Positions 18,497 through 33,567 of a stretch of DNA of 64,000 nucleotides are shown here, piece after piece. The translations under genes and the position numbers were made by a program. The notes under the pieces are model-generated. The model saw only the letters and a list, made by a program, of their open reading frames with translations. It made no database searches and was not told where the DNA came from. Position 1 is the first letter of the stretch; each line of letters begins with the position of its first letter. The DNA lies in NCBI GenBank assembly GCA_016795505.1, contig JAEUHH010000103.1:1-64000 (forward strand), read 5' to 3'. This DNA is from Verrucomicrobiales bacterium. GTDB lineage: Bacteria; Verrucomicrobiota; Verrucomicrobiia; Verrucomicrobiales; DEV007.

Positions 18497-18630
18497 ATTG
18501 AGGCGTCCCGTAGCCGCCGTCACCAAAGCGCAAACCGTAGCCGCCGTCGCCAGGCCGGTGGCCGATAGCCCGTGCCGCATTTCTTTGCCCACCTACGACA
18601 CAAAACACATTCCCCTCGCCAAAGCAGCAG

Positions 18631-20243
18631 AAAACTGTTCTAAAGAACAGTTTTCATGCCCTCCATCTACCGACCTCGCCGACCCCGCGCCTCGCCCCTC
18701 TGGCAGATCGTCCACCACGCCTGGGCCGAGTTCGAGTCCGGCTACGAGCGCCGCCACCGTCCCATCCACGGACCCCTGCGGCCCGACACCGTCGAGGTCG
18801 TCCGCCAGTTCTACCGCTGCGGCGATCTCGCCGCCGGCTTCAACCGCCTCCAGTGTCCCGAGTGCGGCCACGAAAAGCTCCTCGCCTTCACCTGCAAGAC
18901 CCGCCACTTCTGCCCCAGTTGCCATCAGAGGAAAGTCCGCGCTGTCGGCGATTGGATCGCCCGCGAGTTGTGCTTCGACGTGCCGCACCGGCAGTTCGTT
19001 TTTACCATGCCCAAACCCCTGCGCGGCATCTTCCGCAAACGGCGCAAACTCCTCGACCACCTTTTCCGCATCAGCCTCGAGAGCCTGCGCGACTGGATGC
19101 GTGCCCGGCTCGATTTGCCCGAGGGCCGGCTTGCCGCCGTCGCTTCCGTGCAGACCTTCGGCGACTACCTGAATTTCCACCCTCATCTCCACGTCCTCAC
19201 CGCCTGCGGCCTCGTCGATCGCGCAGGTCGCTTCCATCTCCTGCCCGTCGAATCCATCGAGCCACTCGCCGAACTCTTCCGCCACCGCTTCATCGCCGCG
19301 CTCCACCACGAAAAGCTCATCAGCGAAAAGAAAGCCCGCCAGCTTCTCGCCTGGACCCACAGCGGCTTCAGCCTCGACGCCGGAGAAAAACCCGTCGCCT
19401 CCCACGATGTCGAGGGCCGCCGGAGATTGGCCGAATATCTCCTGCGCGCCCCGTTCTCGCTCGAAAAAATCACCTGGAACCCCACCGCCGAAAAAGTCGT
19501 ATACCGCTCCAAGCGCAGTTGGCACACCAAGAAAAACTACCAGGTCTTCACCGCGCCCGACTTCCTCGCCGCCCTCGTCGAACACATCCCGCCCAAGAGC
19601 CAGCACACCGTTCGTTACTACGGCCTCTACTCCAACAAAAGCCGTGGACTCGGCGCCAAGGCCGGCCGGCCTCGCCCAGTCATGCCGCCCGCGGAACCGG
19701 AACGCCGCCTGGCATTGCCGGCCGCCACCGCGCCCACCCTGTTCGTCCTGCCGCCACCTGAACCAAAAAGCGCCCGCGCCCTCAGGCCCCTGTGGCGCGA
19801 CCTCATCAGGAAAGTATGGGGCGAGGACCCGCTCATCTGCCCCTGTTGCCGGGGAACGATGAAAAATGTCGGCACGATGATCCGGCGAAGCGAAGTAGAA
19901 TTTTTCCTGAGACTCCATGGCTTGTGGGAAGGAATCATCGCCCTGCCACCACCCCCATGTCCTCCGTTCGACATCGAGACCATGGAGCCGCTCGACGTGC
20001 CGCCCCAGTGGGGCTGGAGCGACGACATCGAGCCACCGCCGCCCGACTGGTGGTTGGGCGACATGCCCGATCCCGCCTGGCAGGAACCCGAGTTCGATTT
20101 TGGAGACGGCCGCTCTCTGAGTCTCGAAACCTCTGATCCCTTTCCGCCGGACGAGGTGCCCGTCTTCCGCTGGGATTGAGGAGGCATGACAGCAGTTGAA
20201 AGACCCGGATCGTTTCGTTGAATTTGATCCGGGGCGGTTCCCC
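18631..20243 (+). mobile_element. IS91-family insertion sequence (approximate limits)
   Basis: The element is defined by its HUH transposase gene. The left limit is set at an 11-bp inverted repeat (AAAACTGTTCT/AGAACAGTTTT, 18631-18654) ending one base before the transposase ATG. The right limit is set after two hairpins at 20204-20233 (CCCGGATC/GATCCGGG) and 20230-20243 (GGGG/CCCC), which resemble the structured ori end of rolling-circle elements. True ends were not proven and no target duplication is expected for this family. The ~70-bp repeat array begins about 130 bp to the right. Confidence 0.6.
18656..20179 (+). CDS. IS91-family HUH transposase
   Basis: A 507-residue protein for rolling-circle transposition. 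The N-terminal zinc ribbon is visible at C67, C70, C80, C86 and C89 (CPECGHEK...TRHFCPSCHQRK). The HUH metal motif is FHPHLHV (H177, H179). The catalytic tyrosine region is VRYYGLYSNKSRG (Y321, Y322, Y325), typical of IS91/ISCR enzymes. A C-terminal CPCCRGTM cluster at ~395-402 adds a possible second zinc site. The frame is intact, so the enzyme may be active. It lies at the edge of the repeat-rich accessory region. Confidence 0.93.
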   Translation: MPSIYRPRRPRASPLWQIVHHAWAEFESGYERRHRPIHGPLRPDTVEVVRQFYRCGDLAAGFNRLQCPECGHEKLLAFTCKTRHFCPSCHQRKVRAVGDWIARELCFDVPHRQFVFTMPKPLRGIFRKRRKLLDHLFRISLESLRDWMRARLDLPEGRLAAVASVQTFGDYLNFHPHLHVLTACGLVDRAGRFHLLPVESIEPLAELFRHRFIAALHHEKLISEKKARQLLAWTHSGFSLDAGEKPVASHDVEGRRRLAEYLLRAPFSLEKITWNPTAEKVVYRSKRSWHTKKNYQVFTAPDFLAALVEHIPPKSQHTVRYYGLYSNKSRGLGAKAGRPRPVMPPAEPERRLALPAATAPTLFVLPPPEPKSARALRPLWRDLIRKVWGEDPLICPCCRGTMKNVGTMIRRSEVEFFLRLHGLWEGIIALPPPPCPPFDIETMEPLDVPPQWGWSDDIEPPPPDWWLGDMPDPAWQEPEFDFGDGRSLSLETSDPFPPDEVPVFRWD

Positions 20244-20345
20244 GTGTCCAAACTTCACGAAAAAGGACCATTTCCCTTCCGCAAATCAGTCAATCTGAGA
20301 AAACCGGTTGACCAAGGCACCGAATTCAGTCCAAAATGGCTCGAA
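20180..20345. other. Transposase 3' flank with hairpins
   Basis: This stretch holds the two hairpins at 20204-20243 described under the IS and, from 20323, a 53-bp block that recurs at 31360-31412. An open frame from 20196 runs into the beta-propeller gene, but its first ~110 codons are translated from this flank and the repeats. Confidence 0.45.
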
Positions 20346-20531
20346 ATGAGCCCCATTTTACCCTTCCTCCCCCTGAACCCCCTCCAACCCGGCCCCAAGG
20401 TCGGCGAGGGAACGGAGGGGTTGAAAAAGCGATTTCCTAGCAGTTTACCCTTCCTCCCCCTGAACCCCCTCCAACCCGGCCCCAAGGTCGGCGAGGGAAC
20501 GGAGGGGTTGAAAAAGCGATTTCCTAGCAGT
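20323..20531 (+). repeat. ~70-bp repeat, locus 1: 53-bp block plus two copies
   Basis: A 53-bp block (20323-20375) contains the hairpin AAAATGGCTC-GAAAT-GAGCCCCATTTT. It is followed by full repeats at 20376-20444 and 20463-20531, with an 18-bp spacer that repeats the end of the block. Each copy starts (G)AACCCCCTCC, has an outer stem with GGAGGGGTT and an inner CCGGCC/GGTCGG stem, and ends GATTTCCTAGCAGT. Confidence 0.95.
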
Positions 20532-23189
20532 AATTCTGCCTGCATTCCCATCTCCATTTTCCGCCGCATCCTCCCGTCCTCGCGTTGTCTGCTTTCGCTG
20601 CTCTGTGCGCTGATAGCCACGGGATCATACGGCGCGGATGCTCCTCCCGCAGCGATCAAAACCAACTGGCAGCAGGCAGGTTGGGGCGGTGGCGGGTTTT
20701 ATTTTTCCGCCGTCTATCACCCGACGCAGGACGGTGTGATCTACATGGCCGGGGATGTGAATGGTGTTTACAAAACGGAGGACCACGGGAAGCACTGGCG
20801 CATCATCAACAATGGTATCGCCTCGTATGCGGTTTATTCGCTCGCGGTGAGCCAGAGCGAGCCGCAGACGGTCTTCGCTGCGACGGAAGATGGGCTGTCC
20901 AAAAGCACGGATGCGGGTGAGCACTGGCGCACGCTGCCGCAGACGGGGCGCAAGGAACTGCGCATCACGGGGGAGCGAAAGCTCAGCATCCGTGCCATCG
21001 CGGTGGACCCGAGCGACGCGCGCATCGTGTATGCCGCCAGTCCGTCTGGCAAAGTTTACAAGAGCAGCGATGGCGGCGAAACCTGGGCGGTGTCCTATGA
21101 AACGAAACCGGTGGCAGAAGAAGGCGGTGCCCTGCGGGTTCAGTTCGGCAAGATCAATGGCGAATACTACGGTGATCTGGCATTGCCGGTGGCGACCCCT
21201 GCTGGGGTGAATGCCGCCGATTGCAACGGCATCGGATTTTCGGTGAAGGGCGATGGTTCGCTGCCCAAGGATTGCTTTTTGGTGCTCAAGACGAGCGGGG
21301 GCACTGCCTTTCGCAGCAAGAACCTGAACGCTATGTTCAAAGAAACGGCGTGGAATGAGGTGCGACTGAAGGCTGAGGATTTCGCCGTCGATTCAGATTA
21401 CCTGAAGAAACATCCCGAAGCCGCGTCCGCCACGTTCAGCGACAAGAATTGGCCGGACGTTACTCGCTTGGACATTGCCTGCTCGGGCAATCTGCCAAAT
21501 GAGGCGAGCGTGGGTTTGTTTGCGAAATTCTTCTTCACGGTAAACCAGGTCTCGTCGGCGAAAGACGGCACGGTGACGTTTCGCGACTTCGTTCAGGACC
21601 AGACAGCCCAGACCTTTGGCAATATCCATCTCGGAGCACCGCCCTCGGGAACGATTTACAGCGTGACGGTATCTGCTGCCAATCCATCGCATGTGATCGC
21701 AGCCACCCACGATTCGGGTCTTGTCTTGAGTCGCAATGCTGGCCGCACATGGACACGTCTCGCTACACCTGCCCGAGCTGCGAGCGCCACATTTGACCCA
21801 GCCAATCCCGACCTGATTTATGGAGCGTTCTTCAAGAACGGCGTGATGAAGTCCACCGACGGCGGGAAGCGATGGGACAAGCTATCGAAGGACATCTCAG
21901 AGAACGTCGAGGTGATCGAGGTGGCCGTGAGTCCTGGCAATCCGAGTGATCTCTACGCCATCGGTTCGGTCGATTACAATGGCGCGTGTTACGTCTCGAA
22001 CAACGGCGGCGAATCGTGGACGAAGTCCAACAAGATCAAAGTCGATACCAAGGCCAATCCCACGCTCGATGGCATCAGTGGCAGTATGGCAAGCATGAGT
22101 GCGGCGAGAAACATCACGCTCAATCCGCGCAATCCGAAAGAGATTTTCATCGCCGCCAACTGGCGTCCCTGCATGAGCCTTGACGGTGGCGTCACTTGGG
22201 CCGAGCGCGATGCTGGCACGGACATCTCCTGCATCACCGACATCCGTTTTCACCAAGGCAAAACCTATGTCACCGCCATGGATGAGGGCACGCTCGTTAG
22301 TGACAATGACGGTGGCCAGTGGCGGCAGCTCTGGCCACTCAAGCACACGCCCGGTCTGAGCGGTCACAACTGGCGAGTCGCGATCGACGAGGTCAATGGC
22401 TCCACCCGCATCATCAGCACGGTGACGCCTTGGTATAAAGTGCCGACCTGCGTGGTGCGGAGCGAAGATGGCGGCAAGACATTCCAGTCGGTTCAGACCG
22501 GTTTGCCCGACTATACCATCCGCCCCAACACCATGTGGGGACAAGGCCACCCACGCGCCCTCGCCGTCGATCCAAACAACCCTCAGATCATCTACCTGGG
22601 CATTGATGGTGATGCTGCGAATGGCAAATCTGGCGGCGGCCTTTTCAAATCCACCGACGGCGGCGCATCGTGGTCGCAACTTCCGAATCAGCCTGCCAGC
22701 CGCCGCATGTTTTTCGCTCTGGCCGTGGACCCGACTGATTCCAAGCGGCTGTTCTGGGGCGCGTGCGGCACTGGTGGCGGCGTTCACCGCAGCGAGGACG
22801 GAGGCAACTCCTGGCAACAGGTCTTCCCAACGGAAAGCTTCATCTGGAACCTGCACATCACGACCGATGGCACCATCTACTGCTCCGGTCAGCATCTCTG
22901 GCGCAGCAGCGATCACGGCACGACATGGACACAAGTGACCCGCTTTGCCGAGAAACGATCCATCGTCGGCATCGAAGTGCATCCCACTGACCCAAAAACG
23001 ATGTGGATCTCCGCCACGACCTGGAACACCAAGCCCGACGGTGCCATCTATAAAACCACCGACGGCGGCACCACCTGGCAAAACATCACCGGGAACATCC
23101 CGTATGTAAAACCGATCCTCCTGCGCTTCAATCCAGCTACCAGCGAGCTATGGGCCGGCGGCGTCGGTTTATACAAAACGAAGCAGTAA
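20346..23189 (+). CDS. Exported Asp-box beta-propeller protein (sialidase/sortilin-like fold), 5' end rebuilt by repeats
   Basis: The recognisable protein starts only at 20532. A signal-like stretch (CLLSLLCALIATGSYGADA) leads into ~850 residues with about twelve Asp-box motifs (SSDGGETW, STDGGKRW, SNNGGESW, SLDGGVTW, STDGGASW, SEDGGNSW, TTDGGTTW). These fit two beta-propellers, as in VPS10/sortilin or GH74-type proteins. No ATG lies between the repeat and the signal, so any start must fall inside the repeats (20196 or 20346) or be a rare codon at about 20540. I infer that the native 5' end was removed where the repeat joins. No catalytic residues were assigned, so a specific glycosidase activity is not claimed. 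Confidence 0.7.
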   Translation: MSPILPFLPLNPLQPGPKVGEGTEGLKKRFPSSLPFLPLNPLQPGPKVGEGTEGLKKRFPSSNSACIPISIFRRILPSSRCLLSLLCALIATGSYGADAPPAAIKTNWQQAGWGGGGFYFSAVYHPTQDGVIYMAGDVNGVYKTEDHGKHWRIINNGIASYAVYSLAVSQSEPQTVFAATEDGLSKSTDAGEHWRTLPQTGRKELRITGERKLSIRAIAVDPSDARIVYAASPSGKVYKSSDGGETWAVSYETKPVAEEGGALRVQFGKINGEYYGDLALPVATPAGVNAADCNGIGFSVKGDGSLPKDCFLVLKTSGGTAFRSKNLNAMFKETAWNEVRLKAEDFAVDSDYLKKHPEAASATFSDKNWPDVTRLDIACSGNLPNEASVGLFAKFFFTVNQVSSAKDGTVTFRDFVQDQTAQTFGNIHLGAPPSGTIYSVTVSAANPSHVIAATHDSGLVLSRNAGRTWTRLATPARAASATFDPANPDLIYGAFFKNGVMKSTDGGKRWDKLSKDISENVEVIEVAVSPGNPSDLYAIGSVDYNGACYVSNNGGESWTKSNKIKVDTKANPTLDGISGSMASMSAARNITLNPRNPKEIFIAANWRPCMSLDGGVTWAERDAGTDISCITDIRFHQGKTYVTAMDEGTLVSDNDGGQWRQLWPLKHTPGLSGHNWRVAIDEVNGSTRIISTVTPWYKVPTCVVRSEDGGKTFQSVQTGLPDYTIRPNTMWGQGHPRALAVDPNNPQIIYLGIDGDAANGKSGGGLFKSTDGGASWSQLPNQPASRRMFFALAVDPTDSKRLFWGACGTGGGVHRSEDGGNSWQQVFPTESFIWNLHITTDGTIYCSGQHLWRSSDHGTTWTQVTRFAEKRSIVGIEVHPTDPKTMWISATTWNTKPDGAIYKTTDGGTTWQNITGNIPYVKPILLRFNPATSELWAGGVGLYKTKQ

Positions 23190-23319
23190 ACAGGTAAGGA
23201 AAGCAATTTAACGGTCATCGCACCTACGCTCATTATGCGTTGAGTCGTAGCTTCACCGCGCCACCGGAAGTTTGGAAACGTTATGGGCGTTTGGTCGCTG
23301 CTACTACAGCATTCAAACC

Positions 23320-23379
23320 ATGTCCCCAATCACCCGCCGCGCCGCCTTCACCTCCGCAGGACTCGCCATGCTTGGCTGA
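23320..23379 (+). pseudogene. Truncated start of a Tat-exported protein (19 codons)
   Basis: ATG at 23320 opens MSPITRRAAFTSAGLAMLG, a twin-arginine signal start typical of DUF1501, Gfo/Idh/MocA or sulfatase-type proteins in PVC bacteria. The next codon is TGA at the join to the repeat (23379). This is the 5' remnant of a gene cut by the repeat. It sits about 130 bp after the propeller gene, in the position of a second operon gene. Confidence 0.6.
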
Positions 23380-23546
23380 ACCCCCTCCAACCCGGCCCCA
23401 AGGTCGGCGAGGGAACGGAGGGGTTGAAAAAGCGATTTCCTAGCAGTAGTTTGAAAAAGCGATTTCCTAGCAGTCTGAACCCCCTCCAACCCGGCCCCAA
23501 GGTCGGCGAGGGAACGGAGGGGTTGAAAAAGCGATTTCCTAGCAGT
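23379..23546 (+). repeat. ~70-bp repeat, locus 2: full, partial, full copies
   Basis: Full copies at 23379-23447 and 23478-23546 flank a partial copy at 23451-23474 that contains only the 3' end (TTGAAAAAGCGATTTCC to CAGT). Confidence 0.95.
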
Positions 23547-23637
23547 AATATGGAATCTCGCAGGTAAGAGAATCCGGGCCGGGCGCGTCAGAAAAGGAAA
23601 GGAACACAGTTCCAGAATTCATCCCAACAACGACAAC

Positions 23638-24138
23638 ATGAGCACACCAGCATCGATTCAGTCCACAAGCCGTAATTTCATCCAACCCCAACTCATTGAA
23701 AAGGTGGGTATTCATTCCACACGATTTGGTCTGGTGCTTGTCTTGATCTGGATTGGAGGAATGAAGTTCACATCCTATGAGGCCGAAGGCATCAAGCCAT
23801 TCGTGGAAAACAGTCCATTGATGTCCTTCGTTTATCAATTTCTAAGTGTAAGGAGCTTCTCCGCCTTCCTTGGCGTAACCGAGATCGTGATTGGTTTGAT
23901 GATCGCTTCCCGGCACTTTACTCCAAAGACCTCGGCTGCGGGAAGCCTCCTCGCAACTGGCATGTTTCTCACGACAATGACCTTCATGCTCTCTACGCCG
24001 GGAATATTTGAGCCCTCTGAAGGTGGTTTTCCGGCGATCTCGATAACGGGCCAGTTTCTGCTCAAAGATCTGGTTTTGCTAGGTGCTTCCATCCTGACGT
24101 GCGGCGAAGCCCTGATAAATAGAAAGCAGTATCGCTGA
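23638..24138 (+). CDS. DUF417 family membrane protein (YkgB/RclC-like)
   Basis: A 166-residue protein with four hydrophobic segments (FGLVLVLIWIGGMKF, FLGVTEIVIGLMIA, GSLLATGMFLTTMTFML, LLKDLVLLGASILTC). The motifs WIGGMKFTSYEAEGIKPFVENSPLMSF and FPAISITGQFLLKD are characteristic of DUF417, the family of E. coli RclC, an inner-membrane protein of the reactive chlorine response. Base composition is visibly less GC-rich than the core genes of the window. The gene is complete and lies between two repeat loci, so it probably arrived with that segment. Confidence 0.8.
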   Translation: MSTPASIQSTSRNFIQPQLIEKVGIHSTRFGLVLVLIWIGGMKFTSYEAEGIKPFVENSPLMSFVYQFLSVRSFSAFLGVTEIVIGLMIASRHFTPKTSAAGSLLATGMFLTTMTFMLSTPGIFEPSEGGFPAISITGQFLLKDLVLLGASILTCGEALINRKQYR

Positions 24139-24470
24139 GTGATTCCCTGACCGAAACACTAACATCACACTGGCACATAACTACGAAAAGACAGAAGTTT
24201 TGCCTTCCGTTTGCGAAGGCTTCGGTCGGTATGCAAATGCCGAAATCGATAAGCGTTGGCTGGTGCGTGGATCGCTGTCATGGCCTCGGATCCCGTTGCG
24301 CTGGAGAGTTCGAATGAACCGTGCAATCCGATGAGTCGGACTAATCCTCCTCTGGTGCCATTAGCATTTCGGGTTCGATAAGATACTAGGAATTTATCCA
24401 AAGAAAATAAGGCACTCTCATTTCTGTCAGTCAGACATCGGGACAAAAACACGTAGATATAAGTATACCA
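24139..24470. other. Intergenic stretch before trpG-like gene
   Basis: 332 bp of moderately AT-rich sequence. No RNA gene, repeat or convincing ORF is seen. The promoter of the amidotransferase gene should lie near its 3' end, where AT-rich sequence (TATAAGTATACC) ends just before the ATG. Confidence 0.35.
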
Positions 24471-25034
24471 ATGTTGCTCATTATTGATAATTACGATTCC
24501 TTCACCTACAATCTCGTCCAGTATTTTGGCGAACTCGGTGCTGAGATGAAGATCGTGCGCAATGACGCAATCACCGTGGAGCAGGTGAGAGAACTCAAGG
24601 CCGATCGGATTTGCATCTCTCCCGGCCCATGCACACCCTATGAAGCGGGCATTTCCTGTAACGTGATCGAGAAGCTAGGGGCCCACACCCCCATTTTGGG
24701 AGTTTGCCTCGGCCACCAAGCGATTGGGCAGGTTTATGGTGGAGAGGTGGTGCGTGGCGCACATCCAATGCATGGGAAAAGCTCGCCTATTCTCCACAAA
24801 GGCAAAGGCGTTTTCACCGGTCTACCGAGTCCGTTTGAGGCGACACGATATCACTCGCTAATTGTGAACCGCCAGTCTCTCCCGGACTGCTTGGAGGTCA
24901 CCGCGTGGACGGACGATAACGTGATTATGGGCCTCCGGCACAAGGAGCATCCGGTCCATGGCGTTCAGTTCCATCCGGAGTCGATCCTGACGGAGGATGG
25001 GAAACGGATACTTGAGAACTTTCTTCGAATGTAA
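24471..25034 (+). CDS. trpG/pabA: Glutamine amidotransferase, anthranilate/aminodeoxychorismate synthase component II
   Basis: A complete 187-residue class I glutamine amidotransferase. It would hydrolyse glutamine and pass ammonia to TrpE or PabB to make anthranilate or aminodeoxychorismate. Visible motifs: N-terminal [22 protein letters not shown], the [12 protein letters not shown] oxyanion region, the catalytic cysteine in [10 protein letters not shown], and the His-Glu pair in VQFHPESIL. No component I gene is adjacent. It lies in a segment between repeat loci with lower GC than the chromosome around it, so it may be an extra copy acquired horizontally. Confidence 0.9.
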
Positions 25035-25374
25035 TGGAGGCTTATCCATGTAATGGCAGATGGAGAAGTGCCTGCACTCCAATGCTGTTGATCGTTCTCA
25101 CACCGCCAATGGATATGCCTTCACCCGTCTTTCCGGTCAAGGCGGAGGAAATTGTGCATTGGTGGAAGATCTTCATCACGTGCGGGGCCTGGGGGTGTTT
25201 TTCATTTTCAGCATCCCCGCTGAATGGCGCGGCAAATCCGAAAACTTTCGCATCCTGCCTCTCGTGACGACAACATCCGCTCAAAGATCGTAAGCGTCAA
25301 GCCGAGCACCTCTTGAGGAGGGCATCATAAACGTCGTAGCATATGTGCTATGACGTTTATGACCGAAGGCGATG
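25035..25374. other. Intergenic stretch ending in a large palindrome
   Basis: 340 bp after the amidotransferase gene. The short ORFs here lack protein-like features. The notable structure is the inverted repeat at 25326-25361, next to the repeat pair. Confidence 0.4.
25326..25361. repeat. 36-bp near-perfect inverted repeat
   Basis: Arms CATAAACGTC-G-TAGCA and TGCTA-T-GACGTTTATG pair through 16 positions with one G:T pairing and a 4-base TATG loop. It ends 13 bp before the repeat pair at 25375. It lacks a T-run, so a recombination or binding site is as likely as a terminator. Confidence 0.75.
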
Positions 25375-25514
25375 AACCCCCTCCAACCCGGCCCCAAGGT
25401 CGGCGAGGGACCGGAGGGGTTGAAAAAGCGATTTCCTAGCAGTTGAACCCCCTCCAACCCGGCCCCAAGGTCGGCGAGGGAACGGAGGGGTTGAAAAAGC
25501 GATTTCCTAGCAGT
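25375..25514 (+). repeat. ~70-bp repeat, locus 3: two copies
   Basis: Full copies at 25375-25443 (one substitution, GGGACCGG for GGGAACGG) and 25446-25514 are separated by only 2 bp. Confidence 0.95.
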
Positions 25515-25901
25515 AAAAACCACGCCTCGGTCAAGAGCCGCTTCCTCGCGGGCAGCAAGGATCGCTTCGCGGTGCCGGACCTCAATGACTTCGGCCAGAT
25601 GCTGATCGCGCGGCCGGAGGCCCGCGTCTCGCTGATGTGCTACGACACCGCCCCCGAGGGCAAGGCGGAGAGCATCAGCTTCGTCCTGGACGGCGACATC
25701 CTGGTCTTTGCCCGGAAGCCGAACCCGAACCGGTTCGACCCCAGCTTCATGAAGACCTTCCGTCTGCGCAACAAGTGGATGGTGCCCGGCACCTACTCCC
25801 GTCCGGACGGGCGCGGCGAGGTCGCGAAGTTCGACTGGTCCGAAGACATCAAAGTCACCAACTCGGCGGCTGCGGTGCGCCGCACCGTGGCGCTGTCCTG
25901 A
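25515..25901 (+). pseudogene. 5'-truncated phage structural gene, possibly major capsid protein C-terminus
   Basis: The frame is open immediately from the repeat boundary and encodes ~128 residues starting KNHASVKSRFLAGSKDRF and ending at 25901. The segment RFDPSFMKTFRLRNKWMVPGT, then AKFDWSEDIKVTNSAAAVRR, resembles C-termini of phage major capsid proteins. This call rests partly on the three phage-type genes that follow. There is no native start codon, so the 5' part was removed at the repeat join. An unrelated protein cannot be excluded. Confidence 0.45.
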
Positions 25902-25950
25902 TCCCCAACAACCCCCGAAGAGCGCTGGCAGACCGCTTTGTAGTCTGCCT

Positions 25951-26141
25951 CCCCGCCTGACGGCGGAAATCCGAAATCCTAAGCTCGAAATCCGAAACAA
26001 TCTCGAATCTCCAATCAGGAAGGTTCAAAACGGAAACGCTCCTCTTGCTCCCCTCGCTCTCTGCGGCTCTGCGCCTCTGCGTGGGACATCCATCCCCGCC
26101 TGACGGCGGAAACTCGCAATCCTAAGCTCGAAATCTGAAAC
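25951..26141. repeat. Two direct copies of the ATCCGAAATCC-type repeat
   Basis: Copies at 25951-25998 and 26095-26141 share CCCCGCCTGACGGCGGAAA and AATCCTAAGCTCGAAAT, about 95 bp apart. A third copy is at 14376-14420. A small hairpin GGCAGAC/GTCTGCC precedes them at 25927-25949. Confidence 0.65.
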
Positions 26142-26147
26142 GGTACC

Positions 26148-26597
26148 ATGTGGCGCGCCCTCACAGAAGACGATCTGTTCTCTGCCATGCACAAGGCCGA
26201 GATCGCCGCGGTGCGGTCCAAGGCTCTGGCCGACGGGCAGTCCGATCCGGTGGCAGAGGTGATCGCCCAGGTGACGATGATGATGCGCGAGGCGATCCGC
26301 TCGTGCCGGGATAACCGGCTGCACCCGGAGGCGGCCTATCTGCCGGAGGCGGCGATGCTGCACGCGGTGGCGATCGTGCGCCACCGCCTGGGGACGCGCT
26401 TCGGGGGACTGATCAAAGGCGGTGAAGACCGGCTGGAGGAATATCGGCGGGCCAACCGCTATCTGGACCAGGTGGCGAGCTGCGCCCAGGCCGTCGAGCG
26501 CTACGGCGCCGAGGAGTCGGCCGCCGCCCCGCAACCCGCGCCTCGCATCACCGCCCGCCGCCGGCACTACGGCCGCGATGACCAGGACGGTATTTGA
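26148..26597 (+). CDS. Phage gp36-like head-tail joining protein (DUF1320-like)
   Basis: A 149-residue protein: MWRALTEDDLFSAMHKAEI, then an alpha-helical region with REAIRSCRDNRLHPEAAYLPE and HAVAIVRHRLGTRF, and a short basic tail. The layout matches Mu gp36/DUF1320 proteins, small helical head-completion proteins encoded after the capsid gene. It follows the probable capsid remnant and precedes the minor head protein by 15 bp. Assignment is by pattern and context, not by strict motif. Confidence 0.5.
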   Translation: MWRALTEDDLFSAMHKAEIAAVRSKALADGQSDPVAEVIAQVTMMMREAIRSCRDNRLHPEAAYLPEAAMLHAVAIVRHRLGTRFGGLIKGGEDRLEEYRRANRYLDQVASCAQAVERYGAEESAAAPQPAPRITARRRHYGRDDQDGI

Positions 26598-26612
26598 TAG
26601 ACAACCACGAAG

Positions 26613-28046
26613 ATGGCCACTCAAATCCAGCCGGTCGACCTGCTCGATCTGAAGACGCTGCGCCCGACCGAACTGCGGACGGCGGAGTGGTCGCGGGTGG
26701 ACCAATGGGCGCGGGAGCGGGCCTTCTACATGGCCGGTGTCGCTGAGGCGGAGACGCTGCAGGAAATGCGGGAGTTGGTGCGGCTGAATGCGACGGGGCA
26801 GGCGGGCGAGTTCGAGCTGCTGAAACGGTGGGAGGCCTTCCTCGATCGCAAGGGCTACACGCCGGAGCCCGGCCAGGAGGGCACGATCAAGGATCTCCGC
26901 TCCCTGAGGCGGTTCAATGTGGCGCTGCGCACGAACACGGCGCTGCTGCACGAGTGGGCGGCCAAGGAGAATGATCTGCGACCGGGACCGATGCGGGCCT
27001 TCCCCGCCTGGGAACTGGTCCGGCTGAAGGCGGCGCGGGTGCCGCGCGACTGGCCTGCGCGCTGGGTGCGGGCCGGCGGCGTGCTGACCGACGATGGCCG
27101 CATGATCGCGGGCAAGCTGGACGAGGTGTGGCCACGACTCGGCGACCGGTCGCTGTTTGCCGATGCCCTGGGAGTCGATTATCCGCCGCTCGCCTGGGGC
27201 AGCGGGATGGGTCGCCGGGGCGTGGGGGCGCGGGAATGTCTCGCCCTGGGCGTGCTGACGAAGGAAGACATCGAGGCGTCGGTCGCGTACGTGAAGGCGC
27301 GGCCGCTGCACAGTCCGAGCGAGGGGCTGCAGGCGACGCCGCGGGTGACGGACCGCGATCTGCGCGAGGATCTGGGCGAGAAGCTGCAGGGGCTGGCCCG
27401 GTGGGAAGGGAAGACGCTGGTCTTCACCGATCCCAATGGCACCCGGCCGGCGACGCAGGCGGAGCTGCTGGAGATGTGGTCGCGGCCGCTGCCGGAGAAG
27501 TTTCGCACGGAGGCGCATCCGGAGGGGCTGCTGCAGAAGGATGCGCTGAAGCGCTTTGTCGAGCAAAACGACCGCTTCCGTGACGCCGCCGACACGGACC
27601 GATGGGAGGACTTGGTGCGCCTGCACGCGCGCCTCGTGAATGATCGTGAGCGAGACCGCCTGCACCGGGGCCTGAGACTCCGGGATGCTGAGATCGATGG
27701 ATTCCTCTCCCGCATCCAAAAAACCGGGTATGGCGTGCGCCCCGCATACCCGGTCGAGTCGTGGACGGCTTCGCCCGCGGCGGCCGAGCGATTCGCCAAG
27801 GTGGGCAGAATCCCGGACGGGCAATGGTCGGTGCTGCTGTCGATCGACAGGCCCGAGCGGGTCGCCTTCAAAGACATCTCCACGCTGGTCCGGACGCTCC
27901 GACGCGAGATCAATCTTGAAACGGCTTCGCCGCTGGAAACTGAGAGCGAATGGCTCCTGGCTGCGGGCTGGCGATTTGTCGTTAAAGACATCCTCCGTGA
28001 CGCAGAGGCTCGCGTCATCCGCATCCTGCTCAGTACGACCTCTTGA
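26613..28046 (+). CDS. Phage minor head-type protein with C-terminal ADP-ribosyltransferase-like domain
   Basis: A 477-residue protein. Residues ~20-330 are a helical phage-morphogenesis-like region (WARERAFYMAGVAEAETLQ, then a region around GSGMGRRGVGARECLALGVLTKEDIE). Residues ~349-470 match the R-S-E pattern of ADP-ribosyltransferases: LHRGL (R352), SWTAS (383-387) followed by PAAAERFA, and the E-x-E motif ETESEWLL (E444, E446). Phage minor head proteins fused to such domains are known and can be injected into the host. The frame is intact. It lies in a phage module trimmed at both ends by repeats. The family of the N-terminal half is less certain than the C-terminal call. Confidence 0.6.
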   Translation: MATQIQPVDLLDLKTLRPTELRTAEWSRVDQWARERAFYMAGVAEAETLQEMRELVRLNATGQAGEFELLKRWEAFLDRKGYTPEPGQEGTIKDLRSLRRFNVALRTNTALLHEWAAKENDLRPGPMRAFPAWELVRLKAARVPRDWPARWVRAGGVLTDDGRMIAGKLDEVWPRLGDRSLFADALGVDYPPLAWGSGMGRRGVGARECLALGVLTKEDIEASVAYVKARPLHSPSEGLQATPRVTDRDLREDLGEKLQGLARWEGKTLVFTDPNGTRPATQAELLEMWSRPLPEKFRTEAHPEGLLQKDALKRFVEQNDRFRDAADTDRWEDLVRLHARLVNDRERDRLHRGLRLRDAEIDGFLSRIQKTGYGVRPAYPVESWTASPAAAERFAKVGRIPDGQWSVLLSIDRPERVAFKDISTLVRTLRREINLETASPLETESEWLLAAGWRFVVKDILRDAEARVIRILLSTTS

Positions 28047-28197
28047 CCTTGACCTTGTCCGGCCCTCCCCAATGCCCCCGACTGTTCCCCAGCTTCACAT
28101 CCCGCACCAGATTGCGGGCCCCACACCGGCGCTCCGGCTCCATGGCCTCGGCCTCGCGGATCTCGCGGGGAGGTTGGTGCAGGGGTTTGCGTTTCAT
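28030..28197 (-). CDS. Possible small antisense protein in the phage module
   Basis: A 55-residue ORF, MKRKPLHQPPREIREAEAM at its start and RGHWGGPDKVKVKRSY at its end, fills the only gap between the two flanking phage genes, on the opposite strand. It is very basic and has no signal or membrane segment. It overlaps the end of the minor head gene by 17 bp. Nothing in the sequence proves expression, and it could be chance. Confidence 0.3.
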   Translation of the reverse strand: MKRKPLHQPPREIREAEAMEPERRCGARNLVRDVKLGNSRGHWGGPDKVKVKRSY

Positions 28198-28215
28198 GTC
28201 TGACCAAAAACTACC

Positions 28216-28827
28216 ATGCTGATCCTGACCGTCCAGATCGAAGATGCGGCCACGAGCGCCCTGCAGCGCACGATGGCGCGCCTGGACGCGGCCACGGAGC
28301 TGCACGAGGCGATGGGCGTGGGCGTAAAACAGGCGGCGGTCGATCACCTGGTGGCGACGAAAAACAGCCCGAACACCGGCTGGTGGGGCCGGGCCGCCCG
28401 CATGGTGAGCCACACGGCGACGGCGACGGAGGCGACGGTGATCTACAACCAGCGCGGCGTGGCGCTGCGCTACCACGGCGGGACCGTGAAGAAGAAGGTG
28501 GACGGGCCGCTGCTGACCATCCCGCTGGCCACGGTGCCGGTGGTCGATGGCACGCGCAAGCCGGCGCGGATGATGGGGTCGCTGGCCTTCATCTCCGCGC
28601 GCAAGGGGCATCGACGCGGACTCCTGGTGGAGGGCGAGGCCTACACGCCGAAAAAGGGCAAGCACGCGGGCCAGGAGCGGACGCGGCCGAAGAAAGGCGG
28701 CCAGCTCTACTACGTGCTGATGGACCAGGTGACGCACCAGCCGGACCCGACAGTGCTGCCGACAGAGAAGGACCTGTCGGCGGCGGCGGTCAATGCGGCG
28801 GAGGAATACCTGACGACGGCGGACTGA
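28216..28827 (+). CDS. Phage virion morphogenesis/tail completion protein (Mu gpG-like)
   Basis: A 203-residue protein with an N-terminal beta strand (MLILTVQIEDAATSALQR), an amphipathic helix, HLVATKNSPNTGWWGRAAR, VIYNQRGVALRYHGG and a basic central part. These are hallmarks of gpG/HK97 gp10-type neck or tail completion proteins. Position after the minor head protein agrees. A short repeat tract (ACAGGATGGACAGGATT) follows the stop codon. Confidence 0.6.
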   Translation: MLILTVQIEDAATSALQRTMARLDAATELHEAMGVGVKQAAVDHLVATKNSPNTGWWGRAARMVSHTATATEATVIYNQRGVALRYHGGTVKKKVDGPLLTIPLATVPVVDGTRKPARMMGSLAFISARKGHRRGLLVEGEAYTPKKGKHAGQERTRPKKGGQLYYVLMDQVTHQPDPTVLPTEKDLSAAAVNAAEEYLTTAD

Positions 28828-28863
28828 GACAGGATGGACAGGATTTTTTTGCGAACCAAACCC

Positions 28864-29265
28864 ATGAAGACGACGCTTTTTATCATGCTGATGCTGGGGC
28901 TGTGCGGCTGCACCGTCACGCGGTCGAAGTCCGTGAATGGACAGGCCTTCACCACGGCCTCGGTGCTGGAAAACGCGGAGTCGAAGACGGTGACCTTTGA
29001 CCCGTCCAGCGGCTTCGTCACCATCGCCGTATCCCAACAAGACCAGGTATCGGGCGCCAAAGCCATCGGGGCGGCGATGGCTACTCTGGAGACGATCGAC
29101 GCCGGCGCGGAATACCTGATGCGACGCCTGGGCAAGGAGCAGGCGATCGAGACGGCCACGAACCCCCTCCAACCCGGCCCCAAGGTCGGCGAGGGAACGG
29201 AGGGGTTGAAAAAGCGATTTCCTAGCAGTAGGCATCCCGCAGGAGGCGGAGGCGTGGCGGTATGA
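28864..29265 (+). pseudogene. Small lipoprotein gene cut at its 3' end by a repeat
   Basis: The ATG at 28864 starts MKTTLFIMLMLGLCGCTVTRS, a lipoprotein signal with lipobox LCGC. About 99 native residues follow, ending at AIETA. From 29161 the frame reads into the ~70-bp repeat (TNPLQPGPK...) and stops at 29265 after ~35 foreign residues. The native C-terminus is therefore missing or replaced. In phage modules such small lipoproteins can be lysis or superinfection proteins, but no function is assigned. Confidence 0.6.
29161..29229 (+). repeat. ~70-bp repeat, locus 4: single copy
   Basis: One full copy joins the truncated lipoprotein gene to the truncated Rhs gene. This is the only locus with a single copy. 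Confidence 0.95.
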
Positions 29266-30577
29266 CGAGCAGGGCAATTGGCTCGCCTACGACAAGGCCG
29301 AAAACGGCACCGAGGTCATCGACCAGACCCGCCGCTCCAACGTCTCTAATCAAATCATCGATATTGACGGCACTAACGAGGGCGTCGCCTACGACAAGAA
29401 CGGCAACATGTTCCGCATCCCGACCGGCGATCCCCTCACCGGCGCGCCGCGCAAACTGGTCTGGAACGCCTGGGATCAGTTGGTTGAGGTGCGCGTCGAG
29501 TCCAGCAACGCCCTCCTCCAGACCAACGCCTACGACGGCCTCTTCCGGCGCACCACCCGCACCCTGGCCGACAGCACCGTGATCCACCAGTACTACAACG
29601 ACCAGTGGAAGCCCATCGAGGAGCGGAAAGACGCCGCCACCACCGCGCTGAATGTTTACTACTGGGGCGCCCGGCCCGGCCATCGCGACGAGCTGATCCG
29701 GCGGGACCGCGATACCGACGGCAATGGCACCCTCGACGAGACTCTGTGGTGCCTGATGGATTATTTCGATCCCATGGCAATCTTGGACAGCGGCGGCGCG
29801 GTCCAGGAGCGCTACACCTATTCCGCCTTTGGGGTGCCGCTGATCCTGGCACCCGATTACGCGACCCGCGGTTCCAGCTCCTTCGCTTGGGACTTCCTGT
29901 TCCACGGGCAGTTCACGGACGCGGAGACGGGGTATCAGAATTATGGGTTTCGGTTCTATGTGCCCGCACTGGGAACCTGGCCAAGCAGAGATCCCTTTTT
30001 TCCAATACCAAATCCATACCACTTTTCAAAGAATTCCCAGCCAAATTTCGTCGACTTTCTTGGATTGTTAACAATTGCAGAAGTAATACTTTTCGCATCC
30101 CTTGCCGCCATTGTGATAATTGCGGCTATAGCCACTTACCACGAATACATTCGCATCTATCGCCTCGAAGACGTGGATTGCGATTGCACCGATTTGTGCC
30201 TTCAAAGGGAGAGAACGAAGACAGCAATTCGAGTGGGTTGGAGCCTATTGATGGATGGGCAATATTCAGATTTCGACTCAATGAGAGACGCCTTAGAAAA
30301 ATTAGGCATTAATACAGTTGGAAGGCTCAATGAGGGCGTCTCGTCACTTGGTAAAGAATTTCTTAACCCAGGCGAAAGGAATATCGTTGATGCAATGGAG
30401 AAAAATAGGAGCGATTTGAATCGGAATCCTGATGCAAAAACCCACCCCGGATTAACTACCGGAATGGTCAAAAATAAGGGATGGGCCGACCAATGGCTTG
30501 AAGCTGAGATTCAGCGGCTCGAAATTTATAAGGATTTGTTGGAAAATGAAATCTCACGACTTGGGTGTAAATGCTGA
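29231..30577 (+). CDS. 5'-truncated Rhs protein with variable C-terminal tip (Rhs-CT 1)
   Basis: The Rhs/YD-repeat frame is open from 29231, directly after the repeat, but its first ATG is at 29408 (MFRIPTGDP). It encodes the last ~230 core residues: YDEQGNWLAYDKAENG, YDKNGNM, WNAWDQLVEV, HQYYNDQWKPIEE, VYYWGARPGHRDEL, and the terminal signature YGFRFYVPALGTWPSRDPF ending FVDFLGL. After that, ~165 AT-richer residues form the tip: a membrane-like segment (AEVILFASLAAIVIIAAIA), a Cys cluster (DCDCTDLC) and a charged helical end. The tip has no recognised toxin family. The stop overlaps the next start (TGATG at 30575-30579). Without its N-terminal shell it is probably not secretable as it stands. 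Confidence 0.75.
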   Translation, partial: GIPQEAEAWRYDEQGNWLAYDKAENGTEVIDQTRRSNVSNQIIDIDGTNEGVAYDKNGNMFRIPTGDPLTGAPRKLVWNAWDQLVEVRVESSNALLQTNAYDGLFRRTTRTLADSTVIHQYYNDQWKPIEERKDAATTALNVYYWGARPGHRDELIRRDRDTDGNGTLDETLWCLMDYFDPMAILDSGGAVQERYTYSAFGVPLILAPDYATRGSSSFAWDFLFHGQFTDAETGYQNYGFRFYVPALGTWPSRDPFFPIPNPYHFSKNSQPNFVDFLGLLTIAEVILFASLAAIVIIAAIATYHEYIRIYRLEDVDCDCTDLCLQRERTKTAIRVGWSLLMDGQYSDFDSMRDALEKLGINTVGRLNEGVSSLGKEFLNPGERNIVDAMEKNRSDLNRNPDAKTHPGLTTGMVKNKGWADQWLEAEIQRLEIYKDLLENEISRLGCKC

Positions 30578-30957
30578 TGAAAAGAAAACTTATGACCGTC
30601 TTTTTTGGATTCGCATCTTTAGTGTCTTGCTATTGCGTTAACTCAATTCTTGGCGGATATGGAATATACCCAAATCCATCCAAAAAATACGTTCACAGAA
30701 GTGGCTTACGCATACCATCTAGCATTGACTGGTATCCATATTTTGGCTATGACGGGAAACTAGGCAAGAACTCTCTTTCAGAGGCGATTCAGGCGCCGTT
30801 TATTTGGGCTGATCGAAGATATTGGCACAAATCTAAAGATATAGCTGATGACGACTTTGAAGATTGGCTCAGTAAAATTGAAATCGAGAAGATACACCCT
30901 GCAGACAGGGGTGCGTTCTTAGAAATCGATGGAGAATCTTTGAAGAATAGTAAATAG
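30577..30957 (+). CDS. Putative lipoprotein, candidate immunity protein for Rhs-CT 1
   Basis: A 126-residue protein, MKRKLMTVFFGFASLVSCYC, with a lipobox-like LVSC after a hydrophobic stretch. An in-frame ATG at 30571 would add two residues. The gene is translationally coupled to the Rhs tip and shares its AT-rich composition, as expected of an immunity gene. The mature part is soluble and aromatic-rich (SIDWYPYFGYDGK, AIQAPFIWADRRYWH). No family is recognised, so the immunity role is inferred from position only. Confidence 0.55.
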   Translation: MKRKLMTVFFGFASLVSCYCVNSILGGYGIYPNPSKKYVHRSGLRIPSSIDWYPYFGYDGKLGKNSLSEAIQAPFIWADRRYWHKSKDIADDDFEDWLSKIEIEKIHPADRGAFLEIDGESLKNSK

Positions 30958-31290
30958 TAGCAACCAATCGCAGTAAACGTGCCGCTTGACTTGGGAAATT
31001 AAAAGCGAAACAGCTTCTTGAGGAGGGGTCTGATCACAATAGCGGCATGACTTCTCCCATATCCATCCAGACGCGGCAATTGCCTTTACTTCGTTCCGGC
31101 TATGCAAATTTCCTGTGTTCAATCTGAAACCAGATTCTCCCTGCCGCCAGGGCGGCCAAGGCATTCAAATTCCAATGCACTCACTCCGTTCATGCCATGC
31201 CGACTTCCCGCTTTCTCCTCCGAAAGCGGATGTTTCATGCGGCTCTGCCGCCAACGCATTCACTCTATGGGCTGTCTTATGACTCAACTG
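30958..31290. other. AT-rich to mixed stretch between Rhs module and repeat locus 5
   Basis: 333 bp with no convincing gene. The + strand ORF at 31102-31386 runs into the repeat and has shadow-like composition. The DNA may contain degraded Rhs-associated or flanking sequence. Confidence 0.35.
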
Positions 31291-31481
31291 AACCCCCTCC
31301 AACCCGGCCCCAAGGTCGGCGAGGGAACGGAGGGGTTGAAAAAGCGATTTCCTAGCAGTAATTCAGTCCAAAATGGCTCGAAATGAGCCCCATTTTACCC
31401 TTCCTCCCCCTGAACCCCCTCCAACCCGGCCCCAAGGTCGGCGAGGGAACGGAGGGGTTGAAAAAGCGATTTCCTAGCAGT
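31291..31481 (+). repeat. ~70-bp repeat, locus 5: two copies around the 53-bp block
   Basis: Full copies at 31291-31359 and 31413-31481 flank a 53-bp block (31360-31412) matching 20323-20375, including its hairpin. Confidence 0.95.
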
Positions 31482-31489
31482 AATACCCC

Positions 31490-33211
31490 GTGCCCAATGC
31501 CGAGCTGAGCTACCTCACGGCGGGTGCCTTCAATGGCGATGCCGGCGATCCCATGACCGGTTATGACCGCTTCGGCCGCACGACCCGGATGCCGTGGAAG
31601 AATGGCGGCACCGTGCTCGCCGACATCGCCTACGGTTACGACCGCGCCAGCCGGAGAACTTGGCGGCAGGACCTGACGCCGGCCGCCCAGGCCGCCTTCG
31701 ACCGCGCCTACGGCTACGACGCCCTCGGCCAAGTGAAGGCCGCTGATCGCGGCACCCTGAATGAGAACCGCACCGCCATCGGCGGAGTGCCGCAGGAAGC
31801 TGAGGCCTGGCAATACGACGAGCAGGGCAATTGGCTCGCCTACGACAAGGCCGAGGGCGGTGCCTCTGTCATCGACCAGACCCGCCGCTCCAACGTGTCC
31901 AACCAGATCGTGACCATCGACGGCAGCAACGAAGGCGTCGCCTACGACAAGAACGGCAACATGATCCGCATCCCGACGGGCGATGCCCTGACCGGCGCGC
32001 CGAGGAAGCTGGTCTGGAATGCCTGGGATCAGTTGGTCGAGGTGCGCATCAAGTCTAGCAATGCGCTCGTCCAGCGCAACGCCTACGATGGGTTGTTCCG
32101 GCGCACGACGCGGACCTTCCCGGCAGCCCCAAGCGGCGAGACGGTCATCCACCAATACTACAACGACCAGTGGAAGCCGATTGAGGAGCGCAAGGACTCA
32201 GCTACCACGGCACTCAATGTCTATTATTGGGGCGCACGTCCCGGCCATCGGGACGATCTCATCCGCCGCGACCGCGACGCCAATGGCGATGGCACACTGG
32301 ATGAACCGCTATGGTGCCTCATGGATTACTTTGATCCGATGGCGATCCTGAACAGCAGCTGCGCGGTGCAGGAGCGGTATGCCTATTCCGCTTTCGGCAT
32401 ACCACTGATCCTGGCGCCAGATTTCATTGCGCACTCATCGACCGACTTTGGTTGGGACTTCCTGTTCCACGGGCAGTTTACCGATCTGGAGTCGGGGTAT
32501 CAGAACTATGGGTATCGGTTCTATTTGCCGGTTTTAGGTCTATGGCTTAGCCGGGATCCGATTGATGAAGAAGGGGGGAGCAATCTTTTTGTATTTTCTC
32601 AGAATGATCCGAATAGTAGCATCGATCTGTTTGGGCTTCAATCCATGAAACCGGCTGAGCGGAAGAGGCCAAGTTCATCGACGCCACAAAAAAATGGCCC
32701 CTTGATTGCTGGCGGTTGCGGTGTACATCCTGCTGAAACTGCCCCCAAACCCGATTCAAATGAATCCGATCCATTTGCCGCTCAACGTCAGAAATGGGCA
32801 AATGAGACGGCAAACTACCTGAATAATTTGAAAAGCGGCAAGGCGGATGGTGGGTTTGTTATTTTGGAAGTGGGTGATTTTTCTAGCCCAAGCACCGATC
32901 CGGATCAAAATTACTGTTGGGAATTTTCTTATAGTTCAATTCGTAGTTGTATTTTATATGACTTCCCTGGGAAGAGATGCGGACTGACCTGTTCGTCAAC
33001 GGGTTTTGCGGTCGGAAAGCTTAGATCCGAGATAACTCAGCGATTTGGTATCGCTGCATCAGAATGCTCTGGAGGCGAGGGGCAAAAAGTTCAGACGTGG
33101 GGGATTCAAGGTGATGCCACGGTTTGGTGGTCTGGGAATGAACTTGGGGGTTGCGGATGCCGCTATTCAATCACCGGATTTGATGCGAAACTTTATTGCG
33201 TAAAACAATGA
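31490..33211 (+). CDS. 5'-truncated Rhs protein with a different C-terminal tip (Rhs-CT 2)
   Basis: The frame opens after a TAA at 31481-31483, at the edge of the repeat. The first usable start is GTG at 31490. About 380 core residues contain YD-repeat motifs (YDRFGRTTRMPW, YGYDALGQVKAADRG, YDKNGNMIRIPTG, WNAWDQLVEV), nearly the same as Rhs-CT 1, and the terminal signature YGYRFYLPVLGLWLSRDPIDEEGG, then SSIDLFGL. The ~190-residue tip is unrelated to tip 1, AT-rich, and cysteine-rich (YCWEFSYSSIRSC, CGLTCSS, GGCGCRY). No toxin family is recognised. The stop (33209-33211) overlaps the next ATG. This is an orphan-type Rhs cassette lacking its N-terminal shell. Confidence 0.78.
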   Translation: MPNAELSYLTAGAFNGDAGDPMTGYDRFGRTTRMPWKNGGTVLADIAYGYDRASRRTWRQDLTPAAQAAFDRAYGYDALGQVKAADRGTLNENRTAIGGVPQEAEAWQYDEQGNWLAYDKAEGGASVIDQTRRSNVSNQIVTIDGSNEGVAYDKNGNMIRIPTGDALTGAPRKLVWNAWDQLVEVRIKSSNALVQRNAYDGLFRRTTRTFPAAPSGETVIHQYYNDQWKPIEERKDSATTALNVYYWGARPGHRDDLIRRDRDANGDGTLDEPLWCLMDYFDPMAILNSSCAVQERYAYSAFGIPLILAPDFIAHSSTDFGWDFLFHGQFTDLESGYQNYGYRFYLPVLGLWLSRDPIDEEGGSNLFVFSQNDPNSSIDLFGLQSMKPAERKRPSSSTPQKNGPLIAGGCGVHPAETAPKPDSNESDPFAAQRQKWANETANYLNNLKSGKADGGFVILEVGDFSSPSTDPDQNYCWEFSYSSIRSCILYDFPGKRCGLTCSSTGFAVGKLRSEITQRFGIAASECSGGEGQKVQTWGIQGDATVWWSGNELGGCGCRYSITGFDAKLYCVKQ

Positions 33212-33567
33212 AAATTAAGTACAATACCAAGGTGATTATCCGATCAATAATTTGCACCTTACTGTTTTCTTCTCTTCTCAGTGGTTGCGGTACGTCAAGC
33301 GGTTACCGAAGCGTTTCTGAAGGGTATCTCTGGAGGCGGGCAACTTCTACGCTAGGTGTATTGCATTACGTTGGCACCAAAGATAATAATGATTACTTTG
33401 ATTACAATGTTGTCCCAACTGAAATTGCCTCATATTTTTTTCACTCTTTAACGAATATAGATAAAATTGAAAAATTTAAAGTCGCGTCCGGAAAGATACC
33501 GCTTGAAGAGAGGTACGATTTAAATTCGAAGAATACTTATATTTCTCCTCCGGATAAGTCTTGGTAG
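33208..33567 (+). CDS. Putative lipoprotein, candidate immunity protein for Rhs-CT 2
   Basis: A 119-residue lipoprotein with signal MKIKYNTKVIIRSIICTLLF and lipobox LLSGCG. The ATG at 33208 overlaps the Rhs stop (ATGA). A TTG four codons earlier is less likely. The mature part is AT-rich and charged, with no recognised family. Like the gene after Rhs-CT 1 it is a lipoprotein, which would fit protection in the periplasm, but this is inference. Its 3' end overlaps the repeat-extended tail of the convergent sulfatase frame by 48 bp. Confidence 0.6.
   Translation: MKIKYNTKVIIRSIICTLLFSSLLSGCGTSSGYRSVSEGYLWRRATSTLGVLHYVGTKDNNDYFDYNVVPTEIASYFFHSLTNIDKIEKFKVASGKIPLEERYDLNSKNTYISPPDKSW

Follow-up and report, generated by a model that had tools for sequence, protein, structure and literature searches.

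In an integron, a single recombinase lies beside a one-way array in which each piece has one recombination end, and the integrase is often under SOS control. Elements of the IS91 family are about 1.5-1.8 kb long. One of them, IS801 of Pseudomonas syringae (1512 nt), yields one-ended products, miniature fragments, caught in a trap gene, that keep the right end intact and start at GAAC, GCAC or a similar tetranucleotide (PMC3189936). ISCR elements also have an IS91-type transposase, with genes downstream of the ori side that vary in ISCR1; according to a report on them, the transposases of ISCR1, ISCR2 and ISCR8 are under LexA control in E. coli, with the LexA box at the transposase promoter, and the transposition mechanism has not been experimentally proven (PMC13393415). 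In the filler-DNA capture of Helitrons, a rolling-circle element gains host fragments stepwise, and this capture is internal to the element (PMC6544945).

The locus described here shares features with each of these systems. The window, by which we mean the whole stretch of DNA analysed (64,000 nucleotides), comprises bases 1-64000 of contig C24 (100,320 bases) in a 6.55-Mb assembly. As in an integron, a single recombinase adjoins a one-way array of DNA pieces with one end each, but the recombinase is an HUH transposase and the pieces are random-looking gene fragments. Whereas the IS801 fragments were caught in a trap gene, the copies found here are confined to one side of the IS and share a single orientation, and the segments that separate them differ in composition. 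Unlike in Helitrons, the DNA is found outside the element, past its right end, and copies of that end separate the pieces. Among the papers listed in our literature search on such arrays, none described arrays of solo ori ends.

The resident IS91-family element

The whole element measures about 1.8 kb (18630-20444) and has a single transposase ORF and non-identical ends, as is usual for the IS91 family (Table 1). The intact HUH transposase named in the earlier note is present: the 507-aa ORF contains the Pfam domains Zn_Tnp_IS91 and Y2_Tnp, scores above the cut-off of the NCBIfam equivalog 'IS91 family transposase' and, in an alignment of eight transposases, shows the invariant residues H175-P-H177-x-H179 and Y321/Y325, which we take to be the HUH and Y2 motifs. 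The gap between its stop codon and the first repeat, however, is 193 bp and not about 150 bp. With the model for ISCR clade Ia transposases (NF052416) it scores 108.4 bits against a cut-off of 925, which places it outside that clade. The closest named relatives (at least 66% identity) come from metagenome-assembled genomes labelled Verrucomicrobia or subgroups of it. The genomes used for comparison are drafts, and those with names were assembled from metagenomes.

Within the window's own group of transposases, homology between relatives ends 20 to 27 bases before the transposase ATG, mostly at -23 to -26, and in some transposase subgroups the common sequence reaches further upstream than the palindrome. 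Judged by these sequence features, the element is a real member of the IS91 family that carries an unusual array.

Table 1. Coordinates of the element, the right-end blocks and the segments between them in the window
Feature	Positions	Strand	Basis
IS left end, 26-bp palindrome GAAAACTGTTC-TAAA-GAACAGTTTTC	18630..18655	+	homology limit among relatives
LexA (SOS) box TGTTCTAAAGAACA, putative	18636..18649	.	exact motif
IS91-family transposase (Zn-finger, HUH, Y2), 507 aa, intact	18656..20179	+	Pfam, NCBIfam, alignment
IS 3' untranslated part	20180..20372	+	aligned in diverged copies L012, L013, L018, L020
IS right (ori-side) end, source of the repeat	20373..20444	+	alignment with diverged copies
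Second right-end copy, tandem, period 87	20441..20531	+	
Segment A-B: VPS10/BNR-domain gene, probably 5'-cut, and first codons of next gene; GC 0.584	20532..23375	+	
Block B: two solo right ends flanking a tail-only copy (about 23448-23474)	23376..23546	+	
Segment B-C: DUF417 gene and class-I glutamine amidotransferase gene; GC 0.507	23547..25372	+	
Block C: two solo right ends, exact tandem, period 71	25373..25514	+	
Segment C-D: genes of unknown function, one weakly phage Mu gp36-like; GC 0.664, native-like	25515..29159	+	
Block D: solo right end	29160..29229	+	
Segment D-E: RHS-core gene, homology from 29231, 5' side missing, and linker; GC 0.512	29230..31287	+	
Block E: two right ends, the second with 52 nt extra of IS 3' region	31288..31481	+	
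Segment E-F: second RHS-core gene, homology from 31482, 5' side missing; GC 0.533	31482..33572	+	
Block F: solo right end, tail-only copy (about 33644-33663), solo right end	33573..33736	+	

Origin of the repeat

Eleven near-identical repeats of 69-72 bp lie between 20373 and 33736, all on the + strand, and a 47-nt core is found in the 11 copies, again all on the + strand, with 0-1 mismatches each. Besides the IS's own end, the window therefore holds ten full copies and two tail-only copies: a 19-nt tail gave 13 matches in the window and 0 in 100 shuffles, two of the 13 being the tail-only pieces of blocks B and F. The comparison of IS ends from other genomic copies with the repeat, which the earlier note had suggested, identified four diverged copies in the same genome that end in it. 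Transposase remnants on contigs C49 (two places), C74 and C35 each have a repeat downstream in the same orientation, and they align unbroken with the window through the transposase end, the 3' untranslated part and the repeat, the alignment halting no more than about 5 bases from the repeat end. Because these alignments run through the 3' untranslated part into the repeat and then halt, the repeat can be identified with high confidence as the right end of the resident IS91-family element.

The right edges of the copies are uniform, all reading CCTAGCAGT, and the final bases differ between IS copies (CAGT, CAAC, GAGA and CAAT), so that the right limit can be placed only to within a few bases. 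When four strands of three ends were folded as DNA, no unusual fold was seen (z -0.59, -0.77, +0.66 and +0.63), and the idea of the right end as a strongly folded hairpin ori was dropped, z being only -0.77 to +0.66. Between 18000 and 34500, no known RNA from Rfam was matched at the gathering threshold.

Left edges of the copies and the GAAC tetranucleotide

As the earlier note had counted, the base preceding AACCCCC is G in 10 of the 11 repeats, with the exception at 33668 (T). The corresponding place in the IS itself reads CCCCCTGAACCCCC, and since all are copies of this one sequence, the ten G's are not independent evidence. The left edge lies 0-2 nt from GAAC in 8 of the 10 window solos, one of which begins at AAC without the G, and these eight have the form of one-ended products, namely an intact right end with a left edge at an IS91-type tetranucleotide within the IS; the remaining two extend 18 and 52 nt further into the IS. 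Left edges 0-2 nt from GAAC or GCAC were also found at G012:C15, G012:C14, G028:C93 and the distal copy of G012:C81, and several other family genomes have one of these two tetranucleotides at the corresponding place. The solos of G039:C8 start CATACC-like, with neither GAAC nor GCAC, which counts against the model of array growth set out below.

With high confidence, then, the other ten copies can be regarded as solo right ends that look like products of one-ended events, one of the readings proposed earlier. They share a fixed 3' end and are truncated from the 5' side, as is consistent with replication that initiates at the right end and terminates prematurely. The companion proposal, that GAAC is the insertion target beside each copy, did not hold up: the tetranucleotide would best be read as a stop signal within the copied unit and not as a flanking target, because it is copied with the unit, is present in the source IS and is replaced by GCAC in some family genomes. 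That the tetranucleotide itself matters agrees with the GAAC or GCAC at the left edge of one-ended IS801 fragments (PMC3189936). Among the right flanks examined, none has GAAC or CAAG directly after the aligned unit, the end of which is uncertain by a few bases; this sets the array apart from IS801 and from the IS91-family pattern in which the right end abuts such a target. In one tandem, GAAC appears one base past the unit end.

Side, strand and spread of the copies

Loci with a nearly full-length IS were probed with each locus's own right end, five loci and then 14 further, one of the latter (L091) being G039:C8 again. Seven loci have extra full-length copies, and all of these (18/18) are on the right (ori) side and on the IS strand: 10/10 in the window, 3/3 at G039:C8, where the transposase has internal stops, and 1/1 each at G012:C15, G012:C14 (a tandem), G028:C93, L066 and L037. 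The 18 copies are 98.6-100% identical over the matched length and lie up to 14.8 kb from the IS, the DNA to the left of the IS in the probed loci being 1-19 kb long. L069 and L072 have their own right end alone, and nine further loci have no recognisable right end; in some of these nine the contig stops there or the element has diverged. The IS-remnant locus G012:C81 agrees with this pattern of side and strand. At G012:C14, an older end, 74% identical, is found on the left side adjoining IS 3' sequence, and L066 and L072 have weak partial matches (76-79% over 39-51 nt) on the left side and opposite strand, which count against the model.

In the window's genome outside the cluster, no scored copy exceeds 93% (40 of 46 candidates scored). 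Outside the window, among the matches listed, 29 of 33 neighbouring pairs of copies are on the same strand (p = 5e-6) and 4 are on opposite strands, and the same-strand bias is seen in 23 of 27 contigs. Mean copy identities within and between loci, which take in older copies, clearly differ only in G000 (0.970/0.834) and G029 (0.855/0.775); they are similar in G066 (0.865/0.838), G061 (0.871/0.876), G028 (0.934/0.933) and G012 (0.914/0.893), and the similarity in these four genomes counts against the model. Across 74 family genomes, the matches listed include the repeat in at least 37, the transposase in at least 14 and both in at least 10, with the repeat alone in 27 and the transposase alone in 4, the transposase being counted at E <= 1e-60, so that its weaker matches are excluded; the copies in these genomes are diverged.

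DNA between the copies and its junctions

The native parts of the contig have a GC content of 0.646, to be compared with the values for the five segments in Table 1. By trinucleotide distance, four of the five segments exceed every native chunk; segment C-D does not, and its native look counts against capture. The phage Mu gp36 match in segment C-D is below the Pfam cut-off. Genes neighbouring the gp36-like one had no Pfam or PHROGs match at E <= 0.001, and a second kind of dispersed repeat, at most about 190 bp long and matched more than 30 times in the window's own genome, lies at 25953-26141.

The homology of the RHS genes starts at the first base after the right end at block E and the second base at block D, while their homologues on C54 and C36 extend further upstream than the window copies. 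To the left of block E, the linker agrees with C54 as far as the bases preceding TGAAC, beyond which C54 carries other sequence, and the flanks of block E are not contiguous in the C54 paralogue. The genes that follow blocks A and C have probably lost their 5' side as well. Those adjoining blocks B and F are not 5'-cut, which counts against the model; block F adjoins the 3' end of a sulfatase gene. The two 5'-truncated RHS-core genes (29230-33211) are adjacent and 80% alike over 740 bp, and their C-terminal ends differ.

We found no source for the fragments, which counts against the model: a search of G000, G012 and G029 gave no other copy of the cargo at high identity. In the window's own genome there were no recent copies of the cargo elsewhere, the best being RHS paralogues at 79-87%. 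Joining the reading frames on either side of the window blocks did not clearly restore any gene, and three same-genus genomes compared by synteny were too diverged to yield an empty site for the window.

Junctions in relatives add to this picture. At G012:C14, a frameshifted fragment of an AcrB-family gene, covering profile positions 646-1020 of 1021, starts a few bases from an older right end, whereas the AcrB-family frame in G005 continues upstream. At G029:C94, collinearity with G020 and G030 begins 11 bases to the right of the last solo, and for the genes to the left of that solo homologues are found on three other G028 contigs. An island of 12.85 kb at G012:C81, made up of an IS remnant, right ends and cargo, sits where nine relatives have an empty site, a spacer of 58-92 bp, these nine being the genomes with both sides present in the stretches compared (five further genomes have one side only). 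Its last solo is followed by 1.0-1.4 kb before the conserved neighbour, which counts against the model; this stretch holds a second, 70% identical piece of the junction region.

Several other repeats were observed in these loci. The first 52 or so bases of L145 (1-52, G029:C94) recur in at least eight other contigs of the assembly, often at their ends, and are probably another repeated element at contig breaks. In L137, the right-end copies at 2482-2689 and 12090-12297 are 93% identical including about 140 bp of right flank, unlike the usual fixed edge. Two solo pairs, at 3183-3378 and 13087-13282 of L132 and at 5051-5142 and 9958-10049 of L148, have a common left flank (about 150 and 20 bp, respectively) and no common right flank, as if the solo end had carried host DNA along.

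A putative LexA box at the transposase start

The exact pattern TGTTC-N4-GAACA occurs at only two places in the 6.55-Mb assembly, and the reversed control pattern at one. The first site is in the IS left end, 6 bp before the transposase ATG, and the second is just upstream of a 204-aa lexA with LexA_DNA_bind and Peptidase_S24 domains. A LexA motif of Verrucomicrobia was reportedly described by Erill in 2016. The upstream regions of 17 relatives, the subset of 45 transposase loci chosen for having the start and upstream DNA at hand, carry the box with no mismatch in five cases, one mismatch in five, two in four and four or more in three. For comparison, 5000 random 83-base pieces of the window, which itself contains the box, included 7 with no mismatch, none with one and 71 with two. 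The transposase start thus appears to carry an operator in common with the lexA promoter region of the host, which would make it a member of the predicted LexA regulon. The box may follow the same logic as in ISCR elements while using the LexA box of another host, being TGTTC-N4-GAACA, this host's type, and not CTGT-N8-ACAG.

Proposed mechanism and alternatives

Copies with differing DNA between them suggest that the element collects gene fragments, perhaps when the DNA of the cell is damaged. In the reading we favour, the array grows at its right end by abortive rolling-circle events that capture DNA, and we put the probability of this whole inferred chain at about 0.5. The transposase would nick the right end and strand displacement would start, often aborting after about 70 nt with a transposase cut at GTTC, which reads GAAC on the + strand. 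The short new end copy could then be joined to the displaced end, giving tandem or tail-only copies without cargo, or both could be joined to the ends of another DNA fragment, giving the order IS, fragment, solo end, flank. Over repeated cycles a one-way array of fragments would accumulate, with a newly made 70-nt copy of the ori end sealing each of them. Since the transposase would be under LexA repression, the events are predicted to occur mostly in cells with damaged DNA, in which broken or single-stranded DNA is available. More tentatively, the SOS-controlled HUH transposase might be an integron-like collector of DNA, each abortive event ligating a foreign or broken fragment that is sealed by a fresh 70-nt ori copy, as the one-way array grows beside the IS.

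The main rival to growth at the right end is local insertion on one strand, in which IS801-like one-ended transposition would place 70-nt right-end fragments into nearby pre-existing DNA (such as the lagging-strand template of a fork), and recombination between identical solos would then cause deletions. Right-end fragments of 229, 360 and 679 nt at such tetranucleotides made up 26.3% of IS801 insertions (PMC3189936). Identical direct repeats would indeed recombine, and the block E linker and the RHS gene both read AAT past the break, as two independent targets might. What this explanation leaves unaccounted for is the confinement of all 18 extra full-length copies to the right side, the absence of copies above 93% among those scored elsewhere in the assembly, and the island that fills the short G012 spacer, and we judge it somewhat unlikely.

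A second alternative is cassette traffic of the ISCR kind, with a circle of fragment plus solo end, formed by rolling-circle replication at a solo, integrating at the resident end. It would suit arrays of uniform orientation with one end per fragment, and ISCR1 offers a precedent in the varied genes downstream of its ori side (PMC13393415). The window solos, however, are 98.6-100% identical to the local IS end and at most 94% to the genome's other loci, and were probably made locally; this, together with the lack of a high-identity cargo duplicate in the three genomes searched, makes such traffic improbable. That the repeats belong to some unrelated dispersed or REP-like family beside which the IS happens to lie is hardly credible: although in 27 of the 37 family genomes with the repeat no transposase match among those listed reached E <= 1e-60, a distribution that the earlier note would have held against an origin from the IS if its ends were also unrelated to the repeat, the IS ends are clearly related to it, the remnants at four other genome places terminate in it, so that their alignments already contradict this idea, and the local IS end is identical to the neighbouring copies. 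Overall, the earlier interpretation of the repeats as IS-derived is supported as far as solo ends go, and unsupported in its use of GAAC as a target.

Implications

The array in the window bears on how IS91 and ISCR elements gain foreign genes downstream of the ori end. It records what look like single events, each with an end copy, a stop site and a DNA piece, and it offers an environmental element for testing abortive rolling-circle capture. The host-specific LexA box at its transposase start suggests that SOS control of IS91-type transposases extends beyond proteobacteria.
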